Virus record (IMG/VR): IMGVR_UViG_3300006923_000078 | Coordinates: 1-33,087 of that record | Source of the DNA: a virus | Length of the DNA: 33,087 bases | Direction: 5' to 3' (one strand) | Shown here: positions 378 to 9,448 of the stretch, one piece after another | How positions within the stretch are numbered: the stretch's first letter is position 1 | Layout: each line of letters starts with the position of its first letter | Translations under genes and position numbers: made by a program | Notes under the pieces: generated by a model | What the model was told of the DNA's origin: nothing | Databases searched by the model: none | Seen by the model: the letters and a program-made list of their open reading frames with translations, nothing else

Positions 378-594
378 TGTTATTCTCCTTTGTTAGGGCT
401 TCCCCGTGTGGCTTGTAAACAAAAATGATAGGCGTAAAAATTTCTACCATATCGTCAAACAATGCTGGGTTGTGTTCTCTGTTACAGAACACTCTCAGGC
501 CATCGCCGATATCGACGATAAGCATCTCGCCGTTAAGGGTGGCCTTAAGGTGATCGCCCGACTGGATGTGGGCGGTAGTTCTAATGATGGCCAT
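358..594 (-). CDS. Small hypothetical protein
   Basis: A 78-residue protein that I do not recognise. The N-terminal half is beta-rich ('AIIRTTAHIQSGDHLKATLNGEMLIVDIGDG' spans a small barrel-like segment) and the tail is acidic (NNNDTDTE). The start overlaps the end of the membrane-protein gene upstream by 14 nt and has an AAGGGGGG purine run as its ribosome binding site. Its own end overlaps the nuclease gene by 20 nt. With gene 581-904 and the nuclease it forms a tight overlapping trio in which no ribozyme intervenes. Confidence 0.7.
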   Translation of the reverse strand: MAIIRTTAHIQSGDHLKATLNGEMLIVDIGDGLRVFCNREHNPALFDDMVEIFTPIIFVYKPHGEALTKENNNDTDTE

Positions 595-904
595 GAGGGC
601 CCCCCTTTAGGTGCCTTAGCGAAGGAGCTTCGCGTTCAACTGTTTCCTGTGTTGAACCACCTTGGGGGGGCGTAACTCTTGGATCTAGCACATCGGCTAT
701 CGCTTCAAAACTCAACCATAAAACCATTGAGAGAAGCCATAACACTATAATCGTGAGTATCGGGCCGAAGATCACCAAAGTCAACGCCATATTCACAACA
801 AGCAAATAAACCAGGTGAAAGGCAAAGGCTCCGACAAAGAGGGCTAGAGCTATCTCTCCCCACTGCTTGCCTGTAATGCTTTTAAGGAAATGTACAATTC
901 TCAT
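581..904 (-). CDS. Small membrane protein, two transmembrane segments
   Basis: A 107-residue protein with a short basic N-terminus (RIVHFLKSITGKQ), then two long hydrophobic stretches at about residues 18-38 and 41-66, and a polar histidine-rich C-terminus ending GPHGHH. The start ATG at 904 has AAAGGAG 8 nt upstream. No family is recognised. A two-helix inner-membrane protein in an early arm could be a superinfection-exclusion or holin-like protein, but nothing in the sequence decides this. It is the first gene after promoter-like site P3. Confidence 0.75.
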   Translation of the reverse strand: MRIVHFLKSITGKQWGEIALALFVGAFAFHLVYLLVVNMALTLVIFGPILTIIVLWLLSMVLWLSFEAIADVLDPRVTPPQGGSTQETVEREAPSLRHLKGGPHGHH

Positions 905-1011
905 ATCTCAGTCTCCTTTTGAGGAATAAAAGTGGCGAACCTGCTCTTTTAAGGTGTGCCTAGCCCGACTCGCCAAAAACTAGGGGCCACCTACTCCATG
1001 AATCGTCCTGC

Positions 1012-1078: not shown

Positions 1079-1133
1079 TTAGCATACTGGGACCGAAGTC
1101 CCAGTTTCACGATTACTCGATCTTCAGTGCTAA
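1079..1133 (-). ncRNA. Hammerhead ribozyme HHR1 (type I)
   Basis: Minus strand, 5' to 3': stem I arm UUAGCA (1133-1128); core CUGAAGA (1127-1121); stem II CGA/UCG with GUAA loop and a U-U pair at its base; GAAA; stem III ACUGGGAC/GUCCCAGU capped by UUCG; cleavage A17 at 1085; stem I return arm UGCUAA (1084-1079), a perfect 6-bp match. The stop codon of gene 1130-1777 (UAG at 1132-1130) lies in stem I. Cleavage is predicted between 1085 and 1084. This is the only copy with GUA instead of GUC and has the weakest stem II. Promoter-like P3 lies just downstream. Confidence 0.85.
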
Positions 1134-1777
1134 GGAAGTTTAGACACGTCCCGCTCAATAATGGTGTCTAGCTCACCGCCTGGGTTAAAGATTATGCACT
1201 GCCCATACCTGCGGGCATCGTTTACCCCCATCACAAAGGCATCCTTCTCCGCCTCTGTATCGAAGAAGTATGTATGCACATAGTGCATCTTTGTCTCGTC
1301 CCTGGTGGTAAGGAAGACTTCCTCTTGGGTAGCTAGGTCCTCTCCATAGGGGGCGTCACTTGCATTTTCCCAGTAGAGCTTCACTACCCATTTCTTACTT
1401 ACTTCTGGGATAGCATAATGTTCTGCTTCCATGAATGTTAACCAGGCTTCCTGCCAGTTAGACTCATCGTAAGTGAGGGAGCTACCTGCTTCACTCCTGT
1501 CACGATTGATCTCTGCTATGATTTTTGCGACAGTCCACTGTGCCTCACTTTTTACTAGTCCACTGTCATAGTCCAAAGTGTAAACCAAATAGGTTCGCTC
1601 ATCTTCGTCGGCTTCGGCGTAATAGAAGGCAACCCGCTGGCCTTCTATCGTGACGATGTCAGCCACCTGATCCAAGCCCACTTTTTCAAAGTCGCTCAGG
1701 GTGTCTACACAGGCCCAGTTAGTGTGGCCATGTATCTCCTGGCACATATCGTCAATTCTTTCGGTGATGTCTTTCAT
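1130..1777 (-). CDS. Acidic hypothetical protein
   Basis: A 215-residue acidic protein with no recognised family. It mixes helices and beta segments, with clusters such as 'AEADEDERTYLVYTLDYDSG' and aromatic-rich 'WVVKLYWENASDAPYGEDLATQEEVFLTTRDETK'. The N-terminal half (residues 1-60) contains C12 and C23 and an IHGHTNW motif but no clear metal site. The start at 1777 has GAAGGAG 8 nt upstream, in the AU-rich leader left after predicted HHR2 cleavage. Acidity and position in the early arm fit a host-takeover or DNA-mimic role, but that is conjecture. Confidence 0.75.
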   Translation of the reverse strand: MKDITERIDDMCQEIHGHTNWACVDTLSDFEKVGLDQVADIVTIEGQRVAFYYAEADEDERTYLVYTLDYDSGLVKSEAQWTVAKIIAEINRDRSEAGSSLTYDESNWQEAWLTFMEAEHYAIPEVSKKWVVKLYWENASDAPYGEDLATQEEVFLTTRDETKMHYVHTYFFDTEAEKDAFVMGVNDARRYGQCIIFNPGGELDTIIERDVSKLP

Positions 1778-1808
1778 TTTTTTCTCCTTCTTAAGTGATT
1801 AAATTTTA

Positions 1809-1863
1809 TAAGCTGACCAGGACCGAAGTCCTGGTTTCGGGGTTACCCCCTCGTCAGAGCTTA
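1809..1863 (-). ncRNA. Hammerhead ribozyme HHR2 (type I)
   Basis: Minus strand: stem I UAAGCU (1863-1858); core CUGACGA (1857-1851); stem II GGGG-GUAA-CCCC; GAAA; stem III ACCAGGAC/GUCCUGGU with UUCG loop; C17 at 1815; return arm AGCUUA (1814-1809). All core residues fit the consensus and every stem pairs perfectly. Cleavage is predicted between 1815 and 1814. It starts 2 nt after the stop of gene 1866-2366 and leaves a 37-nt leader with GAAGGAG for gene 1130-1777. Confidence 0.93.
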
Positions 1864-1865
1864 GG

Positions 1866-2366
1866 TTATCCCTTGTGGTCTTCCCCCTCGCTCATGGCCA
1901 ACGCGTAGTCCTCTCTGGATAGGAGCATGGCTTCTGCTGGGTGGTCGGCCATAAGGTTCTCAGGCCAACGCTTTAGTACTTTTTGGTAGAAGTGCGTTGT
2001 CTTCGTCTTGAGTGCTTCTTCAGCAGACAGGCCTGTTATAAACTCAAACACGTCGTGGCTAGCCTGTCTCAGAAAACCTATTTCGCCGACACCCCAAGTA
2101 CTCCTTCTGGCAATGTCCCTCAGCGATTGAATTAGGTCCCCAGACAAAATCCCATAGCCCAAGGAGTGCCACAAAATTTCCCGCATCTTCTGACGACTCT
2201 CTAAGTCCATGTACTCAAACTGTTGCTTTTGGATGCGGTCATGCCACTCGCTTAGGTAGTAGTCGGCCCTATGGTTCTCACCGAAAACCCCGACAAACCA
2301 GACGTCGGTCAGGAACCCCAAGTAGCTCTTTGCAGACGGCGTTAAATCTTCGTAAGTCTTTGACAT
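1866..2366 (-). CDS. Hypothetical protein, helical
   Basis: A 166-residue, mostly helical soluble protein. It has an N-terminal TYEDLTPSAKSYLGFL segment, an aromatic central region (WHDRIQKQQFEYMDL, MREILWHSLGYGIL) and a C-terminal EDYALAMSEGEDHKG tail. No family or catalytic motif is recognised. The start at 2366 follows GAAGGAG in the leader downstream of HHR3. It stands alone between two predicted ribozymes and would therefore be expressed as its own short mRNA if both cut. Confidence 0.75.
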   Translation of the reverse strand: MSKTYEDLTPSAKSYLGFLTDVWFVGVFGENHRADYYLSEWHDRIQKQQFEYMDLESRQKMREILWHSLGYGILSGDLIQSLRDIARRSTWGVGEIGFLRQASHDVFEFITGLSAEEALKTKTTHFYQKVLKRWPENLMADHPAEAMLLSREDYALAMSEGEDHKG

Positions 2367-2404
2367 TTTTTTTCTCCTTCTAAGATGATTAAAAATTTTA
2401 CTTG

Positions 2405-2463
2405 CTAACCGACTGGGGGTTGCCCCCCAGTTTCGGCTCCTTCAGAGCCATCGTCAGGGTTAG
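2405..2463 (-). ncRNA. Hammerhead ribozyme HHR3 (type I)
   Basis: Minus strand: stem I CUAACC (2463-2458); core CUGACGA (2457-2451); one extra U; stem II GGCUC-UGAAG-GAGCC; GAAA; stem III ACUGGGGG/CCCCCAGU with GCAA loop; C17 at 2411; return arm GGUUAG (2410-2405). The stop UAA of gene 2460-2804 lies in stem I. The extra U between A9 and stem II is unusual but recurs in HHR5 and HHR6. Cleavage leaves a 44-nt leader with GAAGGAG for gene 1866-2366. Confidence 0.9.
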
Positions 2464-2804
2464 TTAAAAGTGGCACGCCACTCTTCGATCTCCGCCTCGA
2501 GTTCGTCGATCTGCTCAGAGATAGAGTCCTGGTCCCAAGTCTGTTGCTCGACGAACCAGTTATCTTCAAATTGACTGCTGTTTCTTGCGATAGCATTGAT
2601 GATGCCACCTCTCTCCTCAAACAACTCCTCAAACTGCTCAGTCGCGTCCTCTTCGGACGTGGCCTGGTACTCCACCTCACCTTTCCACTTGTAGTAGACC
2701 CTGTAGGTCTCGAGGCCTTCCTTTTCCTGCTCCCGCAACTCGTCGATTTTAATCTGGAGTGGCAGGATGATTTCGTTGAGGTCTCTCGTTTCTGTAGCGG
2801 TCAT
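2460..2804 (-). CDS. Acidic coiled-coil protein
   Basis: A 114-residue, strongly acidic, mostly helical protein. N-terminal residues 8-35 (LNEIILPLQIKIDELREQEKEG) and C-terminal residues 95-110 (ISEQIDELEAEIEEW) look like coiled-coil segments. A middle part has a Y-K-W-K-G-E-V-E-Y-Q-A-T-S-E-E-D-A strand-helix pattern seen in many small phage and plasmid proteins. I do not recognise a named family. The start at 2804 has GAAGGAG 8 nt upstream. A small acidic protein next to ArdC could be a DNA mimic; this is only suggestive. Confidence 0.74.
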   Translation of the reverse strand: MTATETRDLNEIILPLQIKIDELREQEKEGLETYRVYYKWKGEVEYQATSEEDATEQFEELFEERGGIINAIARNSSQFEDNWFVEQQTWDQDSISEQIDELEAEIEEWRATFN

Positions 2805-2840
2805 AATTTTCTCCTTCGCTTTTAAGTGATTTAAATTTTA

Positions 2841-2891
2841 CTAGCTGACGCCCTTGCGGGCGTTTCGGCCTGACGGCCTCTTCAGAGCTAG
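2841..2891 (-). ncRNA. Hammerhead ribozyme HHR4 (type I)
   Basis: Minus strand: stem I CUAGCU (2891-2886); core CUGAAGA (2885-2879); stem II GGCC-GUCA-GGCC; GAAA; stem III ACGCCC/GGGCGU with GCAA loop; C17 at 2847; return arm AGCUAG (2846-2841). This is the most compact copy (51 nt) and matches the consensus exactly. The UAG stop of the ArdC gene (2890-2888) lies in stem I. Predicted cleavage between 2847 and 2846 leaves a 42-nt leader for gene 2460-2804. Confidence 0.94.
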
Positions 2892-3739
2892 GCTACTTTT
2901 TTCTGGGACTCCTTTGCTGAAGGTTTAAGGATTAGATCGCAGGCCTTCTGGGCCTTCGTAGAGGCGTCGAAGATGAACCGCTCATCGCTCTCGAGAGCTT
3001 TGATCCAAGAGCCGATGTAGGACTCATGCTGAAGCTCCCCATCGATCCTCGCCTCAGCACAGAGGAAGGCTGATCCCATTTCCGCCACTAGCTCCTCTTT
3101 GGCGTAGAGCTTATCGCCGAAGACCTCGCCCTTCACGCGGTCCAGGCGTTTGTGACTGCCAGTCCAATGCACAAGCTCGTGGAAGGCTGTGGCGTAGAAT
3201 CCAGCAGGGGTTGCGAAGCTCTCGCGGACTGGGATTGAGATCCTGTCTAGATCCCTGTGGTAGCAGGCCCGATCACCGCCGTAGCGGATCTCTGCTCCAG
3301 TGCTTTCCACGATCTCTTCGGCCCTGGCGTGTCTCTCAAATTCTGGGGCCTCTTCAACTTCGACTTCTGGCAGGCCTTCGCACTGGTCTACGTTGAAGAC
3401 TGAGTAGAACCTCATCAGCATGAAGGTGTCATCGGTCTCTTTGCCGTTAGCATCCTTCTTGGGAATGACGTTGTAGAAAATTATTTTGGTGGACTTTTCG
3501 CCCTCGCGGACAGACCCGCCAAGAGCCTTGGCCTGCTTGAATGTCAGCCACTCATTGCTCCAGCCCTGCTCCATGCTGGCAAGGTTCAAGATCCAGATGT
3601 TGATGCCCCTGTAGCTCTTGCCAGTCTTGCGGTTGGCTGGAGAGCCTGTAGCAGTCCAAGGCCTGACCCAAGGTGCGACGCCAGCCTTGAGGGCCTTGAG
3701 AATCCTGTCGGTGACCTGCTTGCGAATCTTTGCTTGCAT
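2888..3739 (-). CDS. ardC: ArdC-type antirestriction protein
   Basis: A 283-residue protein with the two-domain ArdC layout. The N-terminal ssDNA-binding domain (about residues 1-125) carries APWVRPW, the NRKTGKSYRGIN segment and WLTFKQAKALGGSVREGEKS. The C-terminal zincin-like metallopeptidase domain (about 140-275) carries H187-E188-L-V-H191 followed by WTGSHKRL and KEELVAEMG, where a glutamate is expected as the third metal ligand. ArdC family proteins enter cells with plasmids or phages and protect incoming DNA from restriction. Length is normal for the family. The start at 3739 has AGGAG upstream, and promoter-like P2 lies about 50 nt before it. Its stop codon is inside HHR4. Confidence 0.9.
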   Translation of the reverse strand: MQAKIRKQVTDRILKALKAGVAPWVRPWTATGSPANRKTGKSYRGINIWILNLASMEQGWSNEWLTFKQAKALGGSVREGEKSTKIIFYNVIPKKDANGKETDDTFMLMRFYSVFNVDQCEGLPEVEVEEAPEFERHARAEEIVESTGAEIRYGGDRACYHRDLDRISIPVRESFATPAGFYATAFHELVHWTGSHKRLDRVKGEVFGDKLYAKEELVAEMGSAFLCAEARIDGELQHESYIGSWIKALESDERFIFDASTKAQKACDLILKPSAKESQKKVA

Positions 3740-3784
3740 TTTTAACTCCTGTTTCAGATAAGGATTTAACTAATTACTCTGACT

Positions 3785-3813
3785 AAGGTAGGGCCACCGC
3801 CCTCTCTTGTCAA
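3785..3813 (-). promoter_or_regulatory. Promoter-like site P2 with internal palindrome
   Basis: On the minus strand: TTGACA (3813-3808), a 17-nt spacer, TACCTT (3790-3785). The spacer contains GGGC-GGTG-GCCC at 3802-3791, directly next to the -10, exactly where P1 has GGGC-ATAT-GCCC. Downstream text (GTAATTAGTTAA) also resembles that after P1 (GTAATTAATTAA). It would drive ArdC and the genes after it. The -35 begins 6 nt beyond the end of HHR5, so a promoter directly follows a ribozyme. Confidence 0.65.
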
Positions 3814-3819
3814 GTTTCG

Positions 3820-3883
3820 CTAATCGACTAGGAGTCTGCCTGCCCCCTAGTTTCGGCCTCTTCAAGGCCATCATCAGGATTAG
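3820..3883 (-). ncRNA. Hammerhead ribozyme HHR5 (type I)
   Basis: Minus strand: stem I CUAAUC (3883-3878); core CUGAUGA (3877-3871); extra U; stem II GGCCU-UGAAG-AGGCC; GAAA; stem III ACUAGG/CCUAGU with an enlarged purine-rich loop; C17 at 3826; return arm GAUUAG (3825-3820). The stop UAA of gene 3880-4347 is in stem I. Stem II uses the same loop and extra U as HHR3 but different, still complementary, pairs. The large stem III loop is the only such case and may slow folding. Confidence 0.88.
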
Positions 3884-4347
3884 TTAGTAACGTCGAAATA
3901 CTCCAGGGCGTTTCTGCCCACTTTGCGGTCGAAAGTCCCCTGTATGCCAGCGGTCAAACAATCATACATGACCTGGGCGTCCTCGCGGTCTAGCACCAGG
4001 CAATCGCCGAAGGTGTCCGCGAGCCTATCCCTATCCCCTTCGCAGTCCGCGTACTCTTCGCTGTTCATCTCTCTCTGTGCCACCAGGCCAGCACTGGTGC
4101 AATTTTCATTGTACACCAGCACGAGATTGGGCGGGGTCTCAGCTACCCCTGCCAGCTTCGCCTTTGTCGCTCTGTCTGCATCTCGCCAGATCAGGAATAA
4201 AGTGTCGTCCTCTAGCCAGACTTTTTTGATAAAGATTTCAGTCTGATCTTCATCTTTCCACAAATGCACATCTATGGAAATAGTCAGGTCACCCATGTCC
4301 GCTTTTTCTAGCAGGGCATTCAATGTCGCTCTCTCTAAATCTTGCAT
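3880..4347 (-). CDS. Acidic hypothetical protein
   Basis: A 155-residue acidic protein without a recognised family. It opens with a helix (DLERATLNALLEKADMG) followed by beta-strand-like segments (DLTISIDVHLWKDEDQTEIFIKKVWLEDDTLFLIW), then a cysteine-containing acidic part (EYADCEGDRDRLADTFGDCLVLDREDAQVMYDC). Three scattered cysteines do not form an obvious zinc site. The start at 4347 is preceded by GAAGGAG in the leader following HHR6. It is the last gene before promoter P2. Confidence 0.73.
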   Translation of the reverse strand: MQDLERATLNALLEKADMGDLTISIDVHLWKDEDQTEIFIKKVWLEDDTLFLIWRDADRATKAKLAGVAETPPNLVLVYNENCTSAGLVAQREMNSEEYADCEGDRDRLADTFGDCLVLDREDAQVMYDCLTAGIQGTFDRKVGRNALEYFDVTN

Positions 4348-4373
4348 TTTTTACTCCTTCGCTAAAGTTTGTT

Positions 4374-4437
4374 TGGCTTGCCATCATCAGTGAGTCGGGA
4401 GCCACCCGAAACAGACGCCCCGCAGGGCGTTTCGGCA
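4374..4437 (-). ncRNA. Hammerhead ribozyme HHR6 (type II)
   Basis: A permuted order relative to HHR1-5. Minus strand: stem II arm UGCC (4437-4434); GAAA; stem III ACGCCC/GGGCGU with UGCG loop; C17 at 4414; stem I hairpin (4413-4391: UG/CA, small internal loop, UCGGG/CCCGA, loop UGGCU); core CUGAUGA (4390-4384); extra U; stem II return arm GGCA (4382-4379). The loop UGGCU (4404-4400) is perfectly complementary to AGCCA (4378-4374) directly after stem II, a probable pseudoknot. The stop of gene 4439-4906 is 1 nt upstream. Cleavage leaves a 66-nt leader starting with the stem I hairpin. Confidence 0.87.
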
Positions 4438-4438
4438 G

Positions 4439-4906
4439 TTACCCCGAGACCTTAAGTGGATACAAATCGTTCACACTCAGCAGGCCTCTATTGATCTCCT
4501 CTAAATGTTCCCCTACTGAGTCATAGGTATGAATCGTGCCACAAGGGAAGAAATCCCAAAAATGCCCCATGTCAGTCCAGCCCCAGATATCACAGAAGTG
4601 CAGGTGGCCAGTGTCATTATCAATCGCTAAATCGCCTACCGACAAAGAGGTGTGCCACAGGCCCAATTCTTTGATGAAAGGCTGGACTGTTAATTCCCTG
4701 CCACCACTGCTCCAGTTTTCGCCTTGCATAATCATGTAAATATCGTCGATGCTATCGACGCGAATCGTGGCCAGAGCAACGTGAGTCAATAGGCCTGTCC
4801 GCAGTTTTTCATATAACTCTTCGCTGTGTTCCCTAAAGAACTCCAAACCCACGCCAAGGTATCTGCTGGACTCTGAGTTCGCGTAAAGGATTGTGAAGTC
4901 TTTCAT
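4439..4906 (-). CDS. Hypothetical protein with a HTSLSVGD motif
   Basis: A 155-residue protein. The C-terminal half has 'LGLWHTSLSVGDLAIDNDTG' then FCDIWGW, resembling the hTS-x-SVGD-(V/L)-x-V...GF/GW signature of small phage and plasmid proteins of unknown function; the central 'LATIRVDSIDDIYMIMQGENWS' also fits that pattern (ladV...slDd.f...q...nW). The similarity is by eye only and no biochemical role follows from it. The start at 4906 has AAAGGAG 9 nt upstream, after HHR7. Its stop abuts HHR6. Confidence 0.74.
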   Translation of the reverse strand: MKDFTILYANSESSRYLGVGLEFFREHSEELYEKLRTGLLTHVALATIRVDSIDDIYMIMQGENWSSGGRELTVQPFIKELGLWHTSLSVGDLAIDNDTGHLHFCDIWGWTDMGHFWDFFPCGTIHTYDSVGEHLEEINRGLLSVNDLYPLKVSG

Positions 4907-4939
4907 TTGAATCTCCTTTCTAAGTGATTAAAAATTTTA

Positions 4940-4994
4940 CTAGTTGACTGGACCCGAAGGTCCAGTTTCGGGGTGACCCCCTCTTCAGAACTAG
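4940..4994 (-). ncRNA. Hammerhead ribozyme HHR7 (type I)
   Basis: Minus strand: stem I CUAGUU (4994-4989); core CUGAAGA (4988-4982); stem II GGGG-GUCA-CCCC; GAAA; stem III ACUGGACC/GGUCCAGU with UUCG loop; C17 at 4946; return arm AACUAG (4945-4940). All core positions and pairs are consensus. It begins 4 nt after the stop of gene 4999-5463. Cleavage between 4946 and 4945 leaves a 39-nt AU-rich leader with AAAGGAG for gene 4439-4906. Confidence 0.94.
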
Positions 4995-4998
4995 AGTG

Positions 4999-5463
4999 CT
5001 AGTCTCTCTCCTTTGGGCATCGGGCATCTAATTTTTCAGCTATGTGCAAAATGTTATCAACGAGATCCCCTAGTGTTGTCATTGCATCCAGGTCTTCCTG
5101 ACATTTGGGTATGTCACGTAGCCTCATGTCATCGGGGTAGTTGTCGGCATCGTAGCCGTCAATCGTTTGCTTTAAGTCAACCGCATCAAAGTACAACTCT
5201 GCAATTTCTTCGTCTGGCTTCACCTCGATTAGGATCTTGTCTAGAGCCTCCTGGTTTGCTACAGCGAGGTCCAGCCTGAGTGTGGCCACCTCACGGGCTG
5301 AATAGGTGAGTGCTTTGTCCCGCTTCTTGAGTTCAGCTATTAGCTCGTCCTCGCGGTTGCCCTGCTTCACGCCATCCCTGTAAGCGGTGGCGGAAAGGGT
5401 GCAGAGGTAGAGCGGAATCGTGACTGCGAAGAACACTGCTGTGAGAATGATTGCTGATTCCAT
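4999..5463 (-). CDS. Membrane-anchored coiled-coil hypothetical protein
   Basis: The chosen start is the ATG at 5463-5461 (MESAIILTAVFF), preceded by AAAAGGAG. An in-frame extension to 5550 would translate straight through HHR8 and is rejected. The 154-residue protein has an N-terminal transmembrane segment or uncleaved signal anchor (residues 3-24), then a charged helical region (about 30-80, EDELIAELKKRDKALTYSAREVATLRLDLAVANQ) that looks like a coiled coil, and an acidic C-terminal part. No family recognised. Topology suggests an inner-membrane protein with a soluble helical domain. Confidence 0.78.
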   Translation of the reverse strand: MESAIILTAVFFAVTIPLYLCTLSATAYRDGVKQGNREDELIAELKKRDKALTYSAREVATLRLDLAVANQEALDKILIEVKPDEEIAELYFDAVDLKQTIDGYDADNYPDDMRLRDIPKCQEDLDAMTTLGDLVDNILHIAEKLDARCPKERD

Positions 5464-5485
5464 TTTTAAATCTCCTTTTAAGTTT

Positions 5486-5550
5486 TGGCTTGTCTCTTCA
5501 GCAGGGCTGGAGCCACCAGCACCTGGACGCCCTTTCGGGCGTTTCGACAA
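5486..5550 (-). ncRNA. Hammerhead ribozyme HHR8 (type II)
   Basis: Minus strand: stem II arm UUGUC (5550-5546) immediately after the UAA stop of gene 5551-6027; GAAA; stem III ACGCCC/GGGCGU with GAAA loop; C17 at 5526; stem I hairpin (5525-5502: CAGG/CCUG, a bulged U, GCUGG/CCAGC, loop UGGCU); core CUGAAGA (5501-5495); stem II return arm GACAA (5494-5490). Loop UGGCU (5515-5511) can pair with AGCCA (5490-5486), as in HHR6, competing only for A5490. Cleavage between 5526 and 5525 leaves a 62-nt leader for gene 4999-5463. Confidence 0.92.
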
Positions 5551-6027
5551 TTAGTCCTTCGGGAGCCTCTCAGGGCCATCAGGGCAGACACACCAGTCGA
5601 AGTCAGCATCAGCATTCAGCATTGCTTCACGAATGCAGAGCCTGGTGTGAACCCCTCTGAGTCCGCCGATTCTCCATTGTTCCTGCCACTCGATAGGGCG
5701 GTGGCGGTCTTGGCGTAGGGCGTCTTTAAGAGTGGTGCTAAAGGGGGTTGGCACTGGTCTCCCGTCTCTCACATACTTGCTCCAAAATTTGTCAGCACTC
5801 AGGCGTTCCGCTTCGGCTACCAGAAAATCCACATTGCGACTCGTGAACCAGAGGTCAGCATTGCTTCGGAGTTGGTAGCTTCCCTTGCCATCGGAAGCCA
5901 AGTCAAATCCCAACGCCCTAACCTTGCGTCCAGCGAAGTAGTCGTGGGTGAGGTCCGAAAAGAGAAGGTAGGAAGGGAAGAGGATTAGGGTTCCCAAGTA
6001 GATGATGTCGAGGGCGAAATTTTCCAT
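5551..6027 (-). CDS. Membrane-anchored hypothetical protein, first gene of the leftward arm
   Basis: A 158-residue protein with an N-terminal hydrophobic segment (residues 5-25, LDIIYLGTLILFPSYLLFSDL), then a soluble, basic and tryptophan-rich domain ('RSNADLWFTSRNVDFLVAEAERLSADKFWSKYV', 'PIEWQEQWRIGGLRGVHTRL') and three cysteines near the C-terminus (C131 and the WCVC pair). No family recognised. The start at 6027 has AGGAG upstream and follows promoter-like P1. It is separated from the next gene by HHR8. Confidence 0.77.
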   Translation of the reverse strand: MENFALDIIYLGTLILFPSYLLFSDLTHDYFAGRKVRALGFDLASDGKGSYQLRSNADLWFTSRNVDFLVAEAERLSADKFWSKYVRDGRPVPTPFSTTLKDALRQDRHRPIEWQEQWRIGGLRGVHTRLCIREAMLNADADFDWCVCPDGPERLPKD

Positions 6028-6253: not shown

Positions 6254-6925
6254 ATGAAAATCAGCATCAAAAATTGGAGCAAGTTTCAACACTACCAGAA
6301 CCGCCGTCCGCCCTGGATCAAACTCCACCGCGAGTTGCTTGAAAACCGACAGTGGTTTTTATGCTCGCAAGGTGCTAGCAAGTTGCTAGTGGAGTTATGG
6401 CTGGTTGCTAGCGACAATGAGGACGGCACGATTGATCAAGAGCTTGGAGATTTAGCCTTCCGACTACGGCGGGAAAACTCCACCATGCAGTCACTGCTCC
6501 AAGAGCTTGCAGGTCAAGGGTTTATAGAGATAGACGAAGAGGGTGCTAGCGAGGTGCTAGCAGATAGCTTGCAGGATGCTATACCAGAGACAGAGAGAGA
6601 GACAGAGAAAGAGGCAAAGACAAAGAAGAGAAAAGTGCCTGCTTACACCAAGGAATTTGAAGAGGTGTGGAGTCTCCATAGAAGGGGACCAAAGGCTAAG
6701 GCCTTCGCAGAATATAAGAAGGCAATCTCTGGAGATGTCAGCCACCAGGAAATCGTCGAAGGTATCATAGCATACGTCGCGAGCTTAGATGAGAACTTCA
6801 AAGGGTCCCACCTATTCCGCTGGATAGCTGATGCGAGATGGGAAGAGGATACAGGCGTCAAGACAGTGAAACGAAATCCAGTCTTGACTAATTGGTCACC
6901 ACCAGCACTAGGAGACGTGCAATGA
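6254..6925 (+). CDS. Phage replication initiator (winged-helix, DnaD/O-like)
   Basis: A 223-residue protein. Residues 1-95 form the winged-helix domain typical of phage replication proteins: 'KNWSKFQHYQNRRPPWIKLHRELL', then 'LLVELWLVASDNEDGTI' and 'LLQELAGQGFIEIDEEG'. A charged low-complexity linker (about 110-130, ETERETEKEAKTKKRK) leads to a C-terminal helical module ('EFEEVWSLHRRGPKAKAFAEYKKAI...FKGSHLFRWIADARW') of the kind that loads helicase. Proteins of this layout bind the phage origin and recruit the replicative helicase. GCTAGC-centred repeats lie inside the gene. The stop overlaps the next start (ATGA). Confidence 0.8.
   Translation: MKISIKNWSKFQHYQNRRPPWIKLHRELLENRQWFLCSQGASKLLVELWLVASDNEDGTIDQELGDLAFRLRRENSTMQSLLQELAGQGFIEIDEEGASEVLADSLQDAIPETERETEKEAKTKKRKVPAYTKEFEEVWSLHRRGPKAKAFAEYKKAISGDVSHQEIVEGIIAYVASLDENFKGSHLFRWIADARWEEDTGVKTVKRNPVLTNWSPPALGDVQ
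6371..6562 (+). repeat. Iteron-like GGTGCTAGC repeats inside the initiator gene
   Basis: Five near-identical 9-10 bp units: GGTGCTAGCA (6371-6380), AGTTGCTAGT (6381-6390), GGTTGCTAGC (6403-6412), GGTGCTAGCG (6542-6551), GGTGCTAGCA (6553-6562). Two pairs are spaced 10-11 bp, one helical turn. A purine-only-like run rich in AGAGAC/AAAG follows (about 6585-6635). Repeats within an initiator gene recall the lambda O/ori arrangement, so this may be the replication origin; that is inference. Confidence 0.5.
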
Positions 6926-7794: not shown

Positions 7795-9448
7795 CCGCCT
7801 AAGGACCCACGCCGTCCTAGATGAGTACAGGTCTTTTGGTCACACTGAAGAGGTCATAGCTCACGTCGAATATCAGCACGATCCAATCGGCTGGATGAGG
7901 GACAAACTTGGGGTCCCAGAGCATACCCTGACCTGGTCCCTCAATGATGGCTATGAAGACCATAAGTGGGATGGTGATATCAATCCGCTAGCACTTGTTT
8001 GCAGGGAGCTAGCAGACTGGAAGGACGTTGGAGTTGAGTCGGGAACAGGTACGGGGAAGACCTTCTTGGGAGCCTGTATCGTGCTGTGGTTTCTGGCGGT
8101 CTATGAGGACTCCATAGTCGTCACTGTAGCCCCGAAGCTCAACCAGCTAACCAAGCACCTCTGGAAGGAGATTGGAAGCCTCTGGCCACAGTTCCAAAGA
8201 AGCTTCCCACAGGCAGAGCTTCTAGCCTCTGGAGTGATCCGAATGAAGCCCGCCGTAGAGGACCGCGAGATATGGGGAGCGACAGCCTTCGGGACAGGCG
8301 TTGGAGCAGAGGAGCAGAGTGCAACGAAGGCCCAAGGATGGCACGCCGAACATATGCTCATATTGACCGAAGAAACCCCAGGGGTCCACCCCGCTATCAT
8401 GGTAGCTTTTGAGAACACTTGTAGCAGTCCCCACAACCTCAGATTAGCCTTCGGAAACCCCGACTACGAAGAGGACGAACTACACCAGTTTTGCCTATCT
8501 CCAAACGTGACCCATGTGAGGGTCTCAGCACTGGATCATCCCAACGTGGTAGCCGATGATTCGTCGGTAGTCCCAGGTGCCGTGAGTGTCTCTGCTATCG
8601 AGAGGCGGAAAGAGCTTTATGCCCACATCCCTTCAATGTATGAAAGTCGGGTCAGGGGCATCAGTCCCAAGCAGGCTACTGGAGTCACATTGGCCTTCGT
8701 CGATAGTGACCATATGGAGACCTTCGATGTGACCACGATGCAGGACCAGAACTGGCCTATGTTCGGAGGCATCGACTTCGGTGCTTGGAGGTTCTCCTTC
8801 ATACTGGCAACAGCAGATAGGGCCAAGAGGCTCCACGTCATAGACGAGCTATTCAGTCAGCAAGAAACCCTGACCGCTAGGGCCAAGTCCATAGACGCCC
8901 TACTGACCAAGTACGATGCTCCAAGTACAACCCCGATATGGGGTGACTCCGCTAACCCTCAAGACATCCTAGAGATCAACCAGGCGTTCCGAAATCTCAA
9001 GTCCAGGTACAGGGTCAGGGCCGTGTCCAAGACCTCTGGAGAGAGCAAGCCATACAGACGTGCTTGTGTCGAGAGGTTGCAGGACCTGTTGGGCAGAAGG
9101 GCGTTGCTGTTCAATCGAGGAATGGGCAGAGGAATGACGTGGTACAAAGGTGCCTCAGTAGCGAGTCAAGGAAAGCAGATGACAGGCTCCAGGCTAATGT
9201 GGGAAATCCGCCAATGGAGATACCCAGAAAAGCGAGATGGCAAGGCCCAGGTCCAAGACCCCGATGACGATACGGCAGATGGAGCAGATGCCATAGCGGG
9301 ACTTAGGTACTTAGTCATGTCGTGGTGGAAAGGTGCTAGATACGAAGCCCCAGAGGACCAGCCTACAAGAAACCGCGATACAGGACTCGAGGAAGCACTC
9401 GAGCGTATCGCCGAACAACAACAAAAAATTCATAGGTACCCATTTTGA
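7754..9448 (+). CDS. terL: Terminase large subunit
   Basis: A 564-residue packaging ATPase-nuclease of normal length. The ATPase domain shows Walker A S96-GTGTGKT-103 and Walker B MLILTEE at 201-207, with a coupling-type motif near 'NTCSSPHNLRLAFGNP' (221-235). The nuclease domain (RNase H fold) begins near 335: D341 in 'GGIDFGAWRF', a second acidic site near D398 ('PIWGDSANP'), and D509/D512 in 'DTADGADAIAGLRYL'. It docks on the portal, drives DNA into the capsid and cuts it. The start overlaps the small subunit gene. Confidence 0.95.
   Translation: MSGSVFSPESLNPDRLRTHAVLDEYRSFGHTEEVIAHVEYQHDPIGWMRDKLGVPEHTLTWSLNDGYEDHKWDGDINPLALVCRELADWKDVGVESGTGTGKTFLGACIVLWFLAVYEDSIVVTVAPKLNQLTKHLWKEIGSLWPQFQRSFPQAELLASGVIRMKPAVEDREIWGATAFGTGVGAEEQSATKAQGWHAEHMLILTEETPGVHPAIMVAFENTCSSPHNLRLAFGNPDYEEDELHQFCLSPNVTHVRVSALDHPNVVADDSSVVPGAVSVSAIERRKELYAHIPSMYESRVRGISPKQATGVTLAFVDSDHMETFDVTTMQDQNWPMFGGIDFGAWRFSFILATADRAKRLHVIDELFSQQETLTARAKSIDALLTKYDAPSTTPIWGDSANPQDILEINQAFRNLKSRYRVRAVSKTSGESKPYRRACVERLQDLLGRRALLFNRGMGRGMTWYKGASVASQGKQMTGSRLMWEIRQWRYPEKRDGKAQVQDPDDDTADGADAIAGLRYLVMSWWKGARYEAPEDQPTRNRDTGLEEALERIAEQQQKIHRYPF

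Follow-up and report, generated by a model that had tools for sequence, protein, structure and literature searches.

Predicted hammerhead ribozymes at all eight gene boundaries of a leftward phage operon

A hammerhead in every gap of the operon

The virus contig IMGVR_UViG_3300006923_000078, analysed here over its full 33,087 bases (the window), carries a leftward operon of nine minus-strand genes that runs from a promoter-like site, P1, down to position 581, and a predicted hammerhead ribozyme lies on the coding strand in all eight of the gaps between these genes (S1 to S8; Table 1). Six of the eight are type I hammerheads, in which stem I is open and 6 base pairs long and stems II and III are closed, and two are type II, in which stem II is open. 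The presence of a hammerhead at each of these positions had been proposed in an initial annotation made from the letters alone, and it is borne out by the sequence, by a motif descriptor, by Rfam, by a covariance model built for this study (R1) and by shuffled controls. The elements of the array are conserved, clearly under selection and very probably functional, and it is likely that they act by co-transcriptional self-cleavage, releasing single-gene mRNAs and insulating exchangeable accessory genes.

At all eight sites the sequence contains the catalytic core, consisting of CUGANGA, GAA, the A15.1-U16.1 pair, H17 and a three-stem junction. The departures, which are an extra U in S3, S5 and S6 and a U.U at 10.1/11.1 in S1, fall outside the strictly conserved bases, and the U.U has been described as a natural variant that supports cleavage (PMC3088659). 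S3 and S5, which combine the extra U with a different loop, are the least certain among the type I sites. Hammerheads of three unrelated phages (L087, L101 and L116) likewise have an extra U at this position, after CUGANGA and before stem II. In S6 and S8 the sequence would allow a 5-base-pair pseudoknot, where UGGCU of loop I faces AGCCA after stem II. The minimum-energy fold is the hammerhead at six of the six type I sites (z -2.1 to -4.5); S6 and S8 form their own hairpins, but in a nested fold without a complete junction. Past gene 9 the next two boundaries (594/581 and 377/358) are overlapping genes, so that no gap of the operon is left without a ribozyme, and each of the seven intervals between consecutive ribozymes of the window holds one gene. 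Nothing comparable to the operon hammerheads was found in the rest of the window.

Tests against chance

A strict descriptor matched seven of the eight sites, missing S6, which is yet the top Rfam match, while 60 dinucleotide shuffles of the window, scanned as a chance control, gave zero hammerheads with this descriptor. For the type I form, 61 elements from other phages were collected by a DNA pattern search of IMG/VR and aligned to give R1, and when R1 was applied to the window the six type I sites were the six best matches (E 1.6e-8 to 3.4e-4), and below them came only partial matches to the type II sites and a single chance-level match. Among the 61 elements, double changes are seen at 14 of 16 pairs, a count with some circularity, as the elements had been collected by their pairing; the R1 matches and the comparison of orthologous sites below are free of this circularity. 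An origin by chance is ruled out by the shuffles together with the independently trained model, and a simple tandem repeat of one element is ruled out by the presence of two permuted types and several loop forms. Intrinsic terminators were also considered and are ruled out, as no G+C hairpin followed by a U tract is present in the gaps on the coding strand.

Conservation and exchange among relatives

Relatives of the window phage were gathered via its terminase, and S8 is retained in two of them, L024 and L025. In L025 the pseudoknot segments and every invariant base of the core are kept though the flanking protein is 54% identical, and the changes within the ribozyme are confined to the free core position N7, a stem I G-C pair that has become G-U, and a re-paired stem III. 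Both pseudoknot segments are unchanged in L024 and L025, and hence carry no covariation signal. The orthologue of S4 lies at L028:605-657, in the same place after ardC (58% identical), where all three stems have been rewritten with their pairing kept. Compensatory changes that preserve the structure are found at both the S8 and the S4 orthologues.

The genes around the ribozymes are less constant. L028 has three hammerheads, two of them beside genes without detectable similarity to genes of the window; in L029 and L030 the flanking genes (the replication protein on one side, gene 9 onward on the other) are present with a single gene between them and no hammerhead; and in L162 a relative of gene 2 has no ribozyme and is joined to its neighbour by an ATGA stop/start overlap. 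From these comparisons the ribozymes accompany a type of operon, not one gene family. Nor are they tied to the ardC family, because none was found when the ArdC relatives L003-L022 were scanned for hammerheads. The array region thus behaves as an exchangeable, hypervariable accessory island. In L029 the gap that matches the end of the array (6480-6545, minus strand) holds a tandem pair of hairpins that have a bulged U and share the UGGGCUUUCGUCC core.

Arrays in other phages

Viral contigs were searched with two type I patterns and one GNNA-loop pattern; the matches number at least those listed, and the counts in this section are among the matches listed. Candidate type I elements of this kind are common in phages, since the pattern matches in viral contigs exceed those listed. 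In bacterial and archaeal genomes, 257 billion bases in all, the more specific type I pattern hit ten contigs, against more than the matches listed in viral contigs, and the predicted form is therefore mostly viral. At loci with two or more hammerheads, all copies are on one strand (109 of 109), and the stop codon of a sense open reading frame lies at the 5' edge of the ribozyme in 338 of 427 distinct elements, as opposed to 58 in the antisense control. A single gene fills at least three quarters of the interval between ribozymes in 38 of 75 cases, as compared with 8% of random intervals.

Searches of whole records showed that the copies cluster in one place, for example seven within 5 kilobases (kb) of an 82.7-kb record. 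An array as long as that of the window, with eight consecutive type I hammerheads that are mostly at gene ends, lies at L166:534-4570, in a 5.8-kb contig binned as Aliivibrio sp. In L101 (6226-11139) there are seven hammerheads, and the leaders of about 38 nucleotides (aaaagtcaggtgcagactataacaggca...) that link each to the next gene closely resemble one another. Other arrays are built differently, with type II only at L053:1649-2597 and types II and III at L128:3115-3913; in these two arrays, several predicted hammerhead permutations serve the same placement.

The type I elements follow two main designs of loop II, one with U-N-A-N-U and an A 3' of stem I, and the other with a G-N-N-A tetraloop and a U or other non-A at that position. 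Counting once per locus, the loop II class divides against the stem I flank as 58/0 and 3/41. In arrays that mix both designs every element obeys this rule (nine of nine loci), and common descent of whole phages fails to explain it, because the mixed arrays obey it element by element. In the window, S1, S2, S4 and S7 fit the GNNA-U design. The rule suggests that loop II contacts the end of stem I, a candidate tertiary contact. Contacts between loops and stems of this general kind make natural hammerheads fast at low Mg2+ (PMC3088659). The rule is counted in favour of self-cleavage in the window because it is expected of extended, fast hammerheads.

Operon genes and promoter-like sites

No close or near-identical match to the virus record was found among deposited phages or in an annotated phage collection. 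Plus-strand genes in the right part of the window encode terminase, portal-like and head proteins. A family scan of the nine operon proteins assigned only the ardC product to a known family. The stop codons of genes 4, 5, 6 and 8 fall within a ribozyme stem, and those of the other operon genes lie 0-4 nucleotides ahead of the ribozyme.

P1 carries a GGGC-N4-GCCC palindrome between its hexamers and is kept in L024, L025 and L028. The same palindrome is present in P2, inside the operon, which has a counterpart in L028 upstream of its ardC (1606). The shared palindrome, together with the presence in L028 of a counterpart to each site, makes it probable that a single repressor controls two starts of the operon. 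Ahead of ardC, the L028 gap holds a promoter-like site and no ribozyme, whereas that of the window holds both; the L028 gap fits the processing model described below, because a gene with its own start needs no cut.

In the long leader of gene 9 (window 934-991, minus strand) a pseudoknot is possible, formed by a CCUAG/CUAGG stem and a loop GGCGA that could pair with a downstream UCGCC. The copy in L162 (about 7880-7943) reads CCUAA/UUAGG and GGCGG/CCGCC, which amounts to two compensatory changes. Compared with Rfam, this leader corresponds to no known RNA family, and its nested fold is not significant.

Table 1. Genes, hammerhead elements and promoter-like sites of the leftward operon, in window coordinates
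Feature	Position	Strand	Description
P1	6074..6102	-	promoter-like site, TTGACA-17-GATACT (TTGACA 6102, GATACT 6074), operon start
gene 1	5551..6027	-	no family; 75% identity in L024, 54% in L025
S8	5483..5550	-	type II; predicted cut 5526 (C17)/5525; RF02276 27.3 bits
gene 2	4999..5463	-	no family; relative present in L162
S7	4940..4994	-	type I; GUCA loop II, UUCG stem III loop; predicted cut 4946/4945; R1 34.5 bits
gene 3	4439..4906	-	no family
S6	4371..4437	-	type II; extra U after CUGAUGA; predicted cut 4414/4413; RF02276 36.3 bits, E 5.3e-4
gene 4	3880..4347	-	no family; stop codon within S5 stem I
S5	3820..3883	-	type I; extra U after CUGAUGA; predicted cut 3826/3825; R1 25.8 bits
P2	3785..3813	-	promoter-like site, TTGACA-17-TACCTT, upstream of ardC, inside operon
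gene 5 (ardC)	2888..3739	-	ArdC-like antirestriction protein (ArdcN + MPTase-PolyVal); stop codon within S4 stem I
S4	2841..2891	-	type I; GUCA loop II; downstream of ardC; predicted cut 2847/2846; R1 43.0 bits
gene 6	2460..2804	-	no family; stop codon within S3 stem I
S3	2405..2463	-	type I; extra U after CUGACGA; predicted cut 2411/2410; R1 31.0 bits
gene 7	1866..2366	-	no family
S2	1809..1863	-	type I; GUAA loop II, UUCG stem III loop; predicted cut 1815/1814; R1 38.6 bits
gene 8	1130..1777	-	no family; stop codon within S1 stem I
S1	1079..1133	-	type I; GUA cleavage triplet; U.U at 10.1/11.1; predicted cut 1085/1084; R1 30.1 bits
gene 9	581..904	-	no family; homologue in array-less L029 and L030

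A processing model and its alternatives

In the proposed mechanism, a long RNA would be transcribed from P1, with a further start at P2 before ardC being probable, and the hammerhead at each gene boundary would fold and cut the RNA after GUC or GUA. With type I elements the body of the ribozyme would stay on the upstream mRNA, whereas with type II a hairpin would be left on both pieces. The upstream mRNA would then end in the G+C-rich stem III hairpin followed by a two-nucleotide UC (or UA) with a 2',3'-cyclic phosphate, and the downstream mRNA would begin with a 5'-OH, followed by a short leader that carries a Shine-Dalgarno sequence of its own. Since 3' exonucleases require a single-stranded tail and ribonuclease (RNase) E or J prefers 5'-monophosphate ends, both ends of each mRNA are expected to be protected; they would resist 3' exonucleases and 5'-monophosphate-dependent RNases, and each gene would sit on a self-contained mRNA irrespective of its neighbours. 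Such self-contained mRNAs would suit a hypervariable region with gene exchange. The sequence, fold, conservation and placement of the elements and the parallel arrays in other phages all argue for this processing, and from them we infer cleavage in the cell, stability of the mRNAs and insulation. The initial annotation had envisaged one transcript that is cut into single-gene mRNAs; the cutting gains from the covariance, the orthologous conservation, the uniform strand, the placement at stops and the parallel arrays, but P2 allows a second transcript.

Several points weigh against this model. Cleavage at the eight sites is a prediction from sequence and fold, and 4 of 18 hammerheads that matched the consensus were inactive in the study of Perreault et al. 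(PMC3088659). The extra U between A9 and stem II in S3, S5 and S6 and the U.U pair in S1 may make these ribozymes slow, and the stop codons in or beside the ribozymes may mean that ribosomes keep some of them unfolded. P2 may offer ardC an alternative route to its own 5' end, and as it lies inside the operon, the operon may not be one transcript only. The scoring with hammerhead covariance models that the initial annotation had suggested as a check gave a divided result, in that R1 finds the six type I sites and the Rfam models stay below threshold: the type I model RF00163 matches nothing in the window, even with the cutoff relaxed to E 5, and the gathering score of RF02276, 37, is missed just by S6 and by a wide margin by S8 (scores in Table 1). 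Similar type I elements of other phages score 25-30 bits with RF00163 against a threshold of 34, and an Rfam scan of the relatives L023-L029 gave nothing above threshold.

The overlap of stop codons and ribozymes also lends itself to a different explanation, where the cutting is mainly regulatory: a terminating ribosome would block folding of the ribozyme, and cleavage would report translation of the upstream gene. The four window stops within stem I, those 0-4 nucleotides before the other ribozymes, and the equally close stops of most hammerheads in other phages (among the matches listed) are consistent with this, yet the same overlap is expected from compact phage genomes, the placement fits regulated and constitutive cutting alike, and no aptamer-like domain is attached to the ribozymes, so that a mainly regulatory role is considered unlikely. 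It is less probable still that the elements are recombination or mobility modules, in which similarity between ribozymes and leaders drives the exchange of cassettes and self-cleavage is incidental. Ribozymes stay although operon genes change from L028 to the window, and the leaders after the ribozymes are alike within a genome, both of which would be expected of such modules; however, both types and several loop forms occur together in the window in place of one repeat, stem changes at orthologous sites are compensated, the co-variation of loop II with its flank keeps a property of the RNA and not identity of the DNA, and every copy is on the coding strand. That the elements are simply 3'-end hairpins or terminators of mRNAs, with an incidental or decayed likeness to hammerheads, seems very improbable: although a strong G+C stem III, with UUCG or GNRA loops in several cases, could stop exonucleases without being cut, a U tract is absent from the gaps on the coding strand, the catalytic core is kept in eight of eight sites and in their orthologues, and shuffled sequences give no hammerheads.

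Relation to known systems and significance

The initial annotation knew of no description of such an array, which was mistaken, as clustered hammerheads that flank single genes in prophages were reported by Perreault et al. in 2011 (PMC3088659), who also proposed processing into single-gene mRNAs. In that work tandem prophage hammerheads were found to cleave in vitro, and a triple set also in E. coli, and the 5' end of a halovirus transcript was mapped to a hammerhead site (PMC3088659). Ribozymes have further been described as clustering near other ribozymes and phage genes, for a reason that was called unknown (PMC10085705). The window array resembles the 2011 clusters, such as the triple set around ardA in Agrobacterium tumefaciens, in having several hammerheads on one strand near an antirestriction gene, but differs in that it fills eight of eight consecutive gaps and is dominated by compact type I forms with a 6-base-pair stem I. 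No later account of long hammerhead arrays was found in the openly licensed literature. The kind has thus been known since 2011. Apparently new are the length of the array and its coverage of all eight gaps, the finding that long arrays are abundant, the exchange of cassettes, the rule that ties loop II to its flank, and the two compact sub-forms of type I.

As for the individual elements, S6 and S8 share with the type II pseudoknot hammerhead RF02276 an open stem II, the core and the potential UGGCU/AGCCA pseudoknot, and differ from it in their scores below the gathering score and, for S6, in the extra U. S1-S5 and S7 share with the type I hammerhead RF00163 an open stem I, closed stems II and III and the catalytic core, and differ in that stem I is just 6 base pairs and the presumed contact is made via bases that flank it. 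A likeness of action only exists to synthetic insulators of the RiboJ type, in which every gene acquires a uniform leader with a 5'-OH from a hammerhead set ahead of its ribosome-binding site; those are engineered, whereas the window array is natural and present at every boundary.

The full array, its relatives with lost or swapped genes, and the ribozyme-less homologue in L162 make the effect of cutting on mRNA abundance and stability testable, and the rule of loop II and its flank represents a testable tertiary contact. Better covariance models would reveal many phage ribozymes that are now missed. It is also quite possible, although we hold it only tentatively, that ribozyme-punctuated operons are a widespread phage strategy, in which exchangeable accessory-gene cassettes, each with a self-cleaving 3' end of its own, would turn whatever gene is inserted into an independent, doubly end-protected mRNA. 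In that case the ribozymes would fall into two compact type I designs, a UNANU loop II matched with A at the stem I flank and a GNNA loop II matched with U, and would score largely below the Rfam thresholds.

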